DNA of 60,566 nt from an uncultured Bacillota bacterium (GTDB lineage Bacteria; Bacillota_I; Bacilli_A; RF39; UBA660): contig CAMOPK010000004.1 of assembly GCA_946622285.1 (NCBI GenBank), forward strand, positions 1 to 60,566, read 5' to 3'. The number at the start of each line of letters is the position of its first letter. Within the stretch, counting starts at the first letter, position 1. Shown here in pieces: positions 31,001 through 46,903 of this stretch. The notes under the pieces were generated by a model. It did no database searches and had not been told where the DNA came from. It was given only the letters and a program-made list of their open reading frames with translations. The position numbers were made by a program, and so were the translations under genes.

Positions 31001-32287
31001 TTAATTCTTTTTTGTTTTTGGAAGAATTAGATTTAATATAATTCCAGATATAGCAGCTAAACTCATTCCTGATATCGAAATATTAATATCACCTGTTTTA
31101 AGTGAAATAACTGCTCCACCAAGACCTAATACTAACATTGTCGATGCAATTATTACATTACGAATATCTTCAAAGTCAATTTGATTTTGAACTAATACTT
31201 TAAGTCCATTTACTGATATAAATCCATATAGAAGTAATGAGATTCCTCCTAATACAGGATCAGGTATTGTAGATAAAATTCCTGTAATTGGTCCAAAGAA
31301 ACTAATTATGATTGCCAATATTGCTGCTAATCCAATTACTTTAACTGATGCTACTTTCGTCATACCAACTACTGAAGTATTTTCGCCATAAGTTGTATTA
31401 GCAGGACCACCAAGTAAACCAGCAACACTTGTTGCAAGACCATCACCTAGTAAAGTTCTTTCTAAACCTGGTTCATTTATCAAATCCTTTTTGATGATTG
31501 TCCCAAGTGCCATATGGTCCCCAATATGTTCTGCTATTGTAACTAGCGCAATCGGTACAATTGTTAAAACCCCTTTTAAACTTAATGCATAATCCTTAAA
31601 TGGAATAACGAATTTTGGTATTGAAAAAACCTTTCCATCTAAAGCAGATTTAATATCTACCATTCCAAGAATAATTGATAAAATATATCCTGTTGCAATA
31701 CCAATTAGGAAAGGAATTACTTTCATAAATCCTTTAGCTTTTGTTGCTGTTATAATGGTTACCATAAATGATACTACTGCAACAAGTAGCGCTTTTTTAG
31801 AAAATACATCACCATTGATTCCAATTGATGATATTGCTGATGGAGCTAAGCCTAAACCAATAACCATTATCATTGGTCCAATAACAATTGGTGGTATCAA
31901 TTTGTTAATCCATTTTTTACCAAATAGTTTAATTAATAATGCAAATAGCATATAAACAACACCAACAAGGAATATTCCCATTCCTACACTTGATGCTCCA
32001 CCTGCTAAATAAGCATATGCAATTGGTGAAACAAATGCAAAGCTTGATCCAAGATAAACTGGTGATTTACCTTTTGTACAGATCAAATAAATGAGTGTTC
32101 CTATTCCACTTGTAAATAGTGCAACTGGAATAGTTAGGACTTCAGCTCCTGCTATTTTGTTAACCCAAATTGGAACTAAAATAGTTGCACCAAACATTGC
32201 CAAAACATGTTGCAGTGCTAAGATGATCATTTTTCCTTTTGGTGGTACTTCATGAACATCATAAAGTAAATAATTGTCTTTTTTCAT
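31001..32287 (-). CDS. uraA: Uracil permease
   Basis: A 428-residue membrane transporter of the NCS2 nucleobase family with about 14 helices. GLLGGPANTTYGENTSVVG is the NCS2 motif in its uracil (UraA/PyrP) form, and the preceding TIAEHIGDH contains the conserved Glu/His used in uracil binding. It imports uracil by proton symport for salvage with Upp (46277). The start at 32287 follows GAGGGAGGA. A leader peptide and terminator precede it (32321-32444). It is also known as pyrP. Confidence 0.93.
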   Translation of the reverse strand: MKKDNYLLYDVHEVPPKGKMIILALQHVLAMFGATILVPIWVNKIAGAEVLTIPVALFTSGIGTLIYLICTKGKSPVYLGSSFAFVSPIAYAYLAGGASSVGMGIFLVGVVYMLFALLIKLFGKKWINKLIPPIVIGPMIMVIGLGLAPSAISSIGINGDVFSKKALLVAVVSFMVTIITATKAKGFMKVIPFLIGIATGYILSIILGMVDIKSALDGKVFSIPKFVIPFKDYALSLKGVLTIVPIALVTIAEHIGDHMALGTIIKKDLINEPGLERTLLGDGLATSVAGLLGGPANTTYGENTSVVGMTKVASVKVIGLAAILAIIISFFGPITGILSTIPDPVLGGISLLLYGFISVNGLKVLVQNQIDFEDIRNVIIASTMLVLGLGGAVISLKTGDINISISGMSLAAISGIILNLILPKTKKN

Positions 32288-32320: not shown

Positions 32321-32353
32321 AAAATAAAACACCAATTATAAAAATTGATGTTT
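32321..32353 (-). terminator. Leader attenuator terminator before uracil permease
   Basis: AAACATCAATT pairs with AATTGGTGTTT over a 5-base loop, followed by TTATTTT. Its 5' arm starts inside the leader-peptide stop codon. The hairpin is almost the same as the one before upp. Confidence 0.75.
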
Positions 32354-32444
32354 ATTTAATAATTAATAAGAATGATAAAACAACGAAAACAACGCTTTTC
32401 TTTAACGAACAAATAGTAATAAATGCGTTATTCATACGTGTCAT
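32352..32444 (-). CDS. Leader peptide of uracil permease
   Basis: A 30-codon reading frame, MTRMNNAFITICSLKKSVVF and then ten further residues rich in Val, Leu, Phe and Ile. It has AAGGTGA seven bases before its ATG. The second half is U-rich (GTT, TTC, TTA, ATT codons). The stop codon overlaps the attenuator stem. Leader-peptide coding is inferred from the ribosome site, position and the matching layout before upp; no homology is claimed. Confidence 0.65.
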   Translation of the reverse strand: MTRMNNAFITICSLKKSVVFVVLSFLLIIK

Positions 32445-32461
32445 ATTTTATCACCTTAATA

Positions 32462-32490
32462 AGAATAGCATACCTACTTTATTTTGGCAA
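32462..32490 (-). promoter_or_regulatory. Promoter of uracil permease leader
   Basis: TTGCCA, 17-base spacer, TATTCT with TGC extension, on the minus strand. The expected transcript start falls on the ribosome site of the leader peptide. Confidence 0.65.
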
Positions 32491-45596: not shown

Positions 45597-46093
45597 TTAC
45601 TACCATCCTTTTCATTAAAATCAACTTCAAAATGAATAAATAAATTATCTTCTGGCATAAAGAGTTTAATTATAAAAATATTCTTTTCTTTTTTAAATAC
45701 TTTTGCTTCTGCTAATTTTCTATACATATCATTTATGTCATTTTTAGCATATCTAAAATCAAAGAACAAATGTGGCTCATCGCCTATTTGCAAAGCTGGT
45801 CCATCAAAAAATATAAATTTGCTTACGTCAACTGGCTTTTTTGAATATTTATTTAATTCATCTAAACCTAGTTGGAGTTCAAATTCAAACCATACATCTT
45901 TATTATCTTTAGTTTTACCAGTTATTTCAAATGTTATACATGGCTTTACTTCTTCTCTATCTTTTTTACCATCTTTATAATGAACAACAAAAAAGTTTCC
46001 GAATTCATAAGATAAATTTAATTTAGTTATGTCTTCATTATTAATTTCGAAAGCTGAATTATAAACATGTAATTCTTGTAATACTTTAGTCAT
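45593..46093 (-). CDS. Unknown protein coupled to HD hydrolase
   Basis: A 166-residue soluble protein I cannot assign. It starts MTKVLQELHVYNSAFEINNE and alternates charged and aromatic residues in a beta-rich pattern (VWFEFELQLGL, PHLFFDFRY). Start codon follows GAGGTAATAAC. Overlapping stop/start with the HD gene suggests a shared function. Confidence 0.62.
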   Translation of the reverse strand: MTKVLQELHVYNSAFEINNEDITKLNLSYEFGNFFVVHYKDGKKDREEVKPCITFEITGKTKDNKDVWFEFELQLGLDELNKYSKKPVDVSKFIFFDGPALQIGDEPHLFFDFRYAKNDINDMYRKLAEAKVFKKEKNIFIIKLFMPEDNLFIHFEVDFNEKDGSK

Positions 46094-46137
46094 GTTATTA
46101 CCTCATTTCAATATTATTATATCATAAAAATTTTTGA

Positions 46138-46166
46138 TTGATTATTTTTACATTATATGATAATAT
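46138..46166 (+). promoter_or_regulatory. Promoter of the upp leader
   Basis: TTGATT, 17-base spacer, TAATAT with TGA extension. The transcript would start near 46173, at the leader-peptide ribosome site. Confidence 0.6.
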
Positions 46167-46183
46167 TTACTTAGGTGATGACT

Positions 46184-46234
46184 ATGATAATTAAAAATAC
46201 TAATAGTTTTGATTATTGTGGTCTGTTTTTTTAA
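46184..46234 (+). CDS. Leader peptide of upp
   Basis: Sixteen codons, MIIKNTNSFDYCGLFF, with AGGTGA five bases before the ATG. The frame ends CTG TTT TTT TAA, a run of seven T that reaches the stop codon, and the stop is the first part of the attenuator stem. The layout copies the uracil-permease leader. There is no homology evidence for the peptide itself. Confidence 0.7.
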   Translation: MIIKNTNSFDYCGLFF

Positions 46235-46265
46235 CACTAATTCTTATAGAATTGGTGTTTTTTTT
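46233..46265 (+). terminator. Attenuator terminator before upp
   Basis: AACACTAATTC pairs with GAATTGGTGTT over TTATA (11 bp, one G-U) and is followed by T, immediately before the upp Shine-Dalgarno. The stop codon of the leader peptide forms its base. Confidence 0.85.
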
Positions 46266-46276
46266 AGGAGGTAAAT

Positions 46277-46903
46277 ATGAAAGAAATAATTTTAAATCAC
46301 CCAATGATTAAACACAAAATATCAGTGTTAAGAAGTAAGGACACAAGTACAAAAGAATTTCGTGAATTAATATCCGAAATATCCATGATTCTTTGTTATG
46401 AAGCATTCAAAAATGAAGAATTAACTGAATATGAAGTTGAAACACCAATAGCAAAAACTACTGGCTATAAAATTGATGAAAATAATTATGCTTTTGTACC
46501 AATTTTAAGAGCTGGTATGGGAATGATTGACGGCGTATTAAGAGTTATGCCAACTGCTAAAATTGGTCATATAGGTTTATATAGAAATGAAGAAACATTG
46601 GAACCAGTAAAATATTTTTCTAAATTTCCAAAAGGAATTGAAAATAAAGAAGTAATTTTACTTGACCCAATGCTTGCAACAGGTGGATCTGGTTCTGCTG
46701 CAATTACACTATTAAAACAAGATGGTGTTAAAAAAATAAAATTTCTCTCAATTATTGCAGCACCAGAAGGAATTGAAAGAATAAAAAAAGATCACCCAGA
46801 TGTACAAGTTTATGCCGCACAACTTGATGATCATTTAAATGAAAATGGTTATATCGTTCCAGGCTTAGGTGATGCCGGTGATAGAATTTATGGAACAAAA
46901 TAA
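46277..46903 (+). CDS. upp: Uracil phosphoribosyltransferase
   Basis: This 208-residue enzyme joins uracil and PRPP to give UMP. Conserved segments are FVPILRAGMGMIDG, the PRPP loop VILLDPMLATGGS, IKFLSIIAAPEGI and the uracil-binding GYIVPGLGDAGDRIYGT at the end. AGGAGG precedes the start. With the uracil permease it forms the salvage route. The gene is preceded by a leader peptide and terminator, so it is probably regulated by attenuation. Confidence 0.96.
   Translation: MKEIILNHPMIKHKISVLRSKDTSTKEFRELISEISMILCYEAFKNEELTEYEVETPIAKTTGYKIDENNYAFVPILRAGMGMIDGVLRVMPTAKIGHIGLYRNEETLEPVKYFSKFPKGIENKEVILLDPMLATGGSGSAAITLLKQDGVKKIKFLSIIAAPEGIERIKKDHPDVQVYAAQLDDHLNENGYIVPGLGDAGDRIYGTK

Follow-up and report, generated by a model that had tools for sequence, protein, structure and literature searches.

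Bacilli are taught to control their pyrimidine genes via PyrR. In the E. coli pyrE (rph-pyrE) attenuator, where coupling depends on UTP, the terminator comes shortly after the stop codon of an upstream frame; that upstream frame is a full gene, whereas the leaders described here carry a short frame. E. coli pyrBI, with its leader gene pyrL, combines a leader frame, a U-rich stretch and a terminator, without an antiterminator, ahead of a pyrimidine gene, and termination is prevented when a ribosome follows closely on the polymerase (PMC5021804, PMC4824070). In this short leader, the coupling of translation to transcription is brought about by transcriptional pausing (PMC4824070), and tight coupling across the leader is required to prevent the terminator (PMC5021804). 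In E. coli the ribosome represses terminators that lie near a stop codon, an effect that is lost beyond about 27 nt (PMC4824070).

Translated leader frames upstream of genes have also been described for vmlR and other attenuators of Firmicutes (PMC9226507) and for uORFC-13-1 before aroF in Acholeplasma (PMC8632094); vmlR relies on ribosome stalling and an antiterminator, and no antiterminator was found here. Control of upp by UTP is itself on record in E. coli, where, in the account of the work cited in PMC6245113, it acts at initiation through UTP-sensitive start-site selection and reiterative transcription, with a T tract at the start, whereas in the present leaders about 50 nt or more separate the start from the U-run downstream.

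The window analysed (the whole stretch of DNA, 60,566 nt) contains two leaders, before upp and before uraA, which together with their relatives share with pyrBI a frame with SD and start codon, a terminator at the frame end before the structural gene, a U-rich stretch and the lack of an antiterminator. They differ from pyrBI in occurring in another class, and in preceding genes of uracil import and salvage (uraA, upp and one prs) and none of the carbamoyltransferase-family loci examined, while pyrBI encodes aspartate carbamoyltransferase. Their frames, of 16-45 codons, are mostly shorter than the leader gene of pyrBI, which has 135 bp. Most of these frames stop at the stem base, whereas the pyrBI frame runs through the terminator, and the leaders have a helix, P2, and often a second one, P1. 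The comparison suggests that the leaders work like that of pyrBI; descent from pyrBI is not indicated. In the open-access literature, outside which most subscription papers fall, we found no description of such a leader in Bacilli, and as far as that literature goes the kind of mechanism is known from E. coli and its occurrence in this little-studied group of gut Bacilli is new.

Two leaders in one window

The gene upstream of upp (minus strand, 5' side ending at 46093) is divergent from it, so that upp transcripts from an intergenic promoter must cross the hairpin described below. Reading of the sequence and a consensus scan place a probable promoter at 46134-46164 on the plus strand, as are all features of this leader, with TTGATT at 46134-46139 and either TATGAT at 46156-46161 or GATAAT at 46159-46164. 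These boxes, which would fit the promoter named by the initial annotation, are weak evidence, as promoter-like sites upstream of upp occur at chance level in the consensus scan (7 found, 6.6 expected). The rest of the anatomy could be read directly as that annotation had given it: an SD, AGGTGAT (46173-46179), precedes a frame of 16 codons (46184-46234; MIIKNTNSFDYCGLFF), which starts with ATG at 46184 and ends CTG TTT TTT TAA, its stop codon (46232-46234) lying at the base of a terminator before the SD of upp. The terminator exceeds chance (1 found, 0.2 expected in a scan of the upstream region); its stem (46233-46259), given earlier as 11 bp, has 12 pairs as scanned. Its T8 tail occupies 46258-46265, and the terminator ends 7 nt ahead of the upp SD (AGGAGG, 46266-46271), which is followed by upp itself (46277-46903; the two span 46266-46903), encoding uracil phosphoribosyltransferase (TIGR01091 upp match, 287 bits). 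Dinucleotide shuffling of the DNA upstream of upp produced an SD and a frame of 14-45 codons ending at the upp hairpin in only 18 of 5000 cases.

Two features had escaped the initial annotation. One is a hairpin of 17 pairs inside the frame, P2 (46180-46223), in which folding pairs the leader start (46180-46196) with a later part of the frame (46207-46223). The fold of the upp leader has a z-score of -4.1, and a further computation for P2 gave values of -3.0 to -4.2. Between P2 and the terminator lies a run of seven U (46226-46232), a putative site of polymerase pausing.

The other is a second copy of the whole arrangement in the same window (32470-32287, minus strand), ahead of a uraA/pyrP-like gene of the NCS2 family (31001-32287, minus), whose best NCBIfam match is the uracil permease model, with a score under that model's cut-off. 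Here an extended -10-like sequence, TGCTATTCT (32462-32470), and an SD, AAGGTGAT (32450-32457), precede a frame of 30 codons, MTRMNNAFITICSLKKSVVFVVLSFLLIIK (32352-32444), whose last third is U-rich. Its stop codon overlaps the base of an intrinsic terminator, AAACATCAATTTTTATAATTGGTGTTT (32327-32353), and the SD of uraA comes after that terminator. The sequence AATTGGTGTTT is common to the 3' arm and tail of both terminators of the window. The two genes, each with its own leader, are 14 kb apart in this window and adjacent in many family members.

Conservation, composition and specificity of the leader

The initial annotation had anticipated that a comparison of upp upstream regions would bear on the leader, and that comparison did not support conservation at upp itself: the upp homologues with 73-77% identity and upstream DNA have neither frame nor hairpin. 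The closest upp homologue (L030) ends at a contig edge in its upstream region, and a search of 291 family genomes with the upp leader DNA returned AT-rich noise only, so that among the nearest upp genes and the family genomes searched no homologue of the upp leader itself was detected. The terminator just before upp in genome G152 (L014) is accompanied by a 20-codon frame ending in the stem, with an SD abutting the ATG. In many family members uraA and upp form an operon, the DNA upstream of upp reading into the end of uraA, and we therefore compared the upstream regions of uraA.

The same anatomy, defined as an SD and a frame of 14-45 codons with its stop at -8 to +28 from the stem start, recurs in the family: of 30 upstream regions with a terminator, 27 show it, whereas shuffles gave an expectation of 0.60. 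The 30 regions comprise 29 before uraA plus the upp region of the window, which was scored against its inner hairpin and so counts as a miss; for uraA alone the figure is 27 of 29, one of the misses being L147, where the leader frame runs through the terminator. A stop codon at -1 from the stem start, which thus overlaps the stem base, is the largest class. An additional locus with the arrangement (L248) lies beyond the 30 regions, and some uraA regions (L144, L153 and L163) have no terminator or only a poor frame. In these comparisons, conservation is seen ahead of uraA or of the uraA-upp operon, not at upp itself.

In the family leaders the U fraction climbs towards the terminator: it is 0.27 at a distance of 60-70 nt from the stem and about 0.60 over the final 30 nt. 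At codon positions 1, 2 and 3, T makes up 0.39, 0.59 and 0.70 of the last ten leader codons, compared with 0.12, 0.33 and 0.29 in codons 2-9 and 0.21, 0.32 and 0.42 in the genes of the window; the enrichment at the leader ends thus includes third codon positions.

The window has 111 permissive terminators, and a leader scan of these gave separate short frames at upp and uraA only, its two other matches lying inside genes. At the carbamoyltransferase-family loci, 114 terminators yielded four chance-like matches and no convincing leader. With the exception of a single prs, the arrangement is thus nearly restricted to uracil genes. The prs case, in G152 (L029, 705-798), has the same architecture before the PRPP synthetase gene, with an SD, a U-rich frame (MRKLNFDICCFLSNNIFIH) and a stop within the terminator stem; it was not seen before prs in the six other loci inspected. 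The product of prs makes PRPP, the co-substrate of Upp.

A proposed mechanism and its alternatives

We consider it probable that the upp and uraA leaders are a conserved translation-coupled transcription attenuator, like that of pyrBI, with low UTP as the trigger. The translated-leader logic that the initial annotation had proposed, with a U-rich end, a ribosome-covered stem and a role in pyrimidine salvage, gains strong support from the family count, the U gradient, the lack of an antiterminator and the searches for PyrR described below, which found none here. The regulation itself, pausing as its sensor and UTP as its signal are what we infer, the last from the U-rich stretch and the genes controlled.

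Transcripts would start a few bases ahead of the leader SD. When the polymerase moves fast through the U-rich leader end, the ribosome would lag behind, P2 would fold and the terminator would form, so that uraA or upp is not transcribed. When UTP is scarce, the polymerase would slow in the U-rich stretch and the pioneer ribosome would catch up; on reaching the stop codon in the base of the stem, this ribosome would cover the 5' arm and the polymerase would read through. Given the size of the ribosome footprint, a terminating ribosome at a stop codon in the stem base would cover the whole 5' arm of the terminator.

Such a switch needs a close-following ribosome and so implies coupled transcription and translation in this family. 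In B. subtilis, runaway transcription has been reported, in which the polymerase outpaces the ribosome (PMC9226507, PMC7858274), and, if it held in this family, the mechanism would be defeated. An expressome has been observed in Mycoplasma pneumoniae (PMC9226507), and in coupling this family would have to resemble that organism, not B. subtilis. The leader would then serve as a natural marker by which coupling in uncultured bacteria can be recognised from sequence.

An alternative that we regard as unlikely, though worth serious attention, keeps the translation-coupled attenuator and changes its signal: it would respond to the general state of translation or coupling (ribosome supply, ppGpp or NusG-type pausing), which the uracil genes merely follow. 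The anatomy requires only a ribosome at the stop codon, one leader precedes prs, and TTNTTT, a motif that causes NusG-dependent pausing in B. subtilis (PMC9226507), occurs in 24 of 28 leaders. The motif is, however, no commoner than base composition predicts (1.5 observed against 2.0 expected), and both the near-confinement of the leader to uracil genes and the U enrichment that reaches third codon positions argue against this alternative.

Whether a ribosome at the stem base is called for depends on the RNA structure of the leaders, which we assessed by permutation of pairing partners. As a positive control, the terminators' own arms beat swapped arms completely. For the leader and the 5' arm of the terminator, by contrast, swapped arms equalled or beat the true pairing in 4913 of 5000 permutations; with no sign of an antiterminator, the ribosome itself would have to cover the stem. 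The lack of antiterminator pairing also speaks against an amino-acid leader attenuator of the trp type, as does the lack of a shared regulatory codon run, none being found among the leaders. Two other helices covary, in that for each of them none of 20000 permutations with swapped partners equalled the true partners. In the family, P2 pairs the frame start with the U-rich end of the frame, and this end could serve P2 pairing rather than pausing. The pause in E. coli pyrL was not hairpin-stabilised in a 2022 in vitro study (PMC9291695), so that P2 need not be a pause hairpin. P1 is long-range, pairing the ribosome site of the leader with a segment after the terminator, just before the uraA SD, over up to about 16 bp (for example at L166, L157, L143 and L145). 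In many loci a -10-like box lies about 16-23 nt ahead of the leader ATG, which would make the transcript's 5' end part of P1.

These helices lend themselves to a different reading, in which control is exerted through initiation of leader translation and RNA structure, with P1 and P2 as sensing parts, perhaps bound by a protein. The covariation and the significance of P1 in 19 of 28 loci fit that reading, which we nevertheless hold to be improbable: P1 can form only once the polymerase is past the terminator, too late to decide termination, both loci of the window have a weak P1 or none, and an Rfam scan of the leader gave no credible match. P1 may find a place within the UTP-responsive attenuator preferred above. 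We suggest, tentatively, a self-closing switch in most family members, in which P1 would seal the 5' end of the mRNA after the terminator has been passed and so limit leader translation to the time when termination is decided. Combined with a stop codon at the stem, it would amount to a UTP switch that evolved independently of pyrBI, in a lineage of Bacilli whose transcription and translation have stayed coupled.

The frame might also be a small-protein gene with its own terminator, uraA and upp being expressed by leakage without regulation. It has a good SD and ATG, and apparent true small genes with terminators do occur in related loci: L005, L030 and L032 carry related frames of 28-36 codons, membrane-protein-like and each followed by a terminator, which are probably a small-protein gene. 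For the leaders we find this very hard to maintain, because their stop codon abuts the stem repeatedly before the same gene and their peptides diverge even between close relatives, whereas the frames remain open and their position and U-richness are kept; between L009 and L033, compensating +2/-2 indels keep the leader frame open. This pattern suggests that translation of the leader matters and its peptide product does not.

Pyrimidine control across the class

Leaders of the same kind precede uraA in other families of the class, in f6 (2 of 2) and in some genomes of f5, f16 and f25; they are absent from f9, f12, f19 and f22, save for scattered chance-like matches. PyrR motifs occur in two further families, f3 and f8, before uraA among other places. 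PyrR attenuation (RF00515), known from Bacilli, resembles the present leaders in placing a terminator before pyrimidine genes, but it needs both PyrR and its RNA site, and neither was found here: the motif was found neither in the 13 family genomes searched nor in this genome, in keeping with the earlier statement that no PyrR site was seen, and none of the PF00156 genes found here, namely hpt, a prs-like gene and upp, encodes PyrR. With no alternative pairing to the terminator either, and the frame as frequent as reported above, an attenuator of the PyrR or riboswitch type with a frame there by chance is scarcely credible.

No PF02729 gene, and hence no aspartate carbamoyltransferase, was found in this genome (G000), so that de novo pyrimidine synthesis appears absent; with an assembly completeness of 88%, this and the other absences from the genome are provisional. 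The organism may obtain its pyrimidines by salvage, and the leaders suggest how small genomes in which neither aspartate carbamoyltransferase nor PyrR is detected could match uracil uptake to demand.

Two other observations concern permease genes. In f12, eight loci (L196, L216, L221, L222, L237, L245, L246 and L249) share a terminator that is nearly the same in all of them, TTCTATGTCTTTCGACTTAGAA, ahead of uraA, but no leader frame there is convincing; Rfam gave no match in a scan with L196 and L221 among its loci, and this terminator is perhaps another attenuator. At L174 (2933-3034), a purine riboswitch lies close to a permease gene whose sequence matches uraA, which suggests that this permease is a purine transporter.
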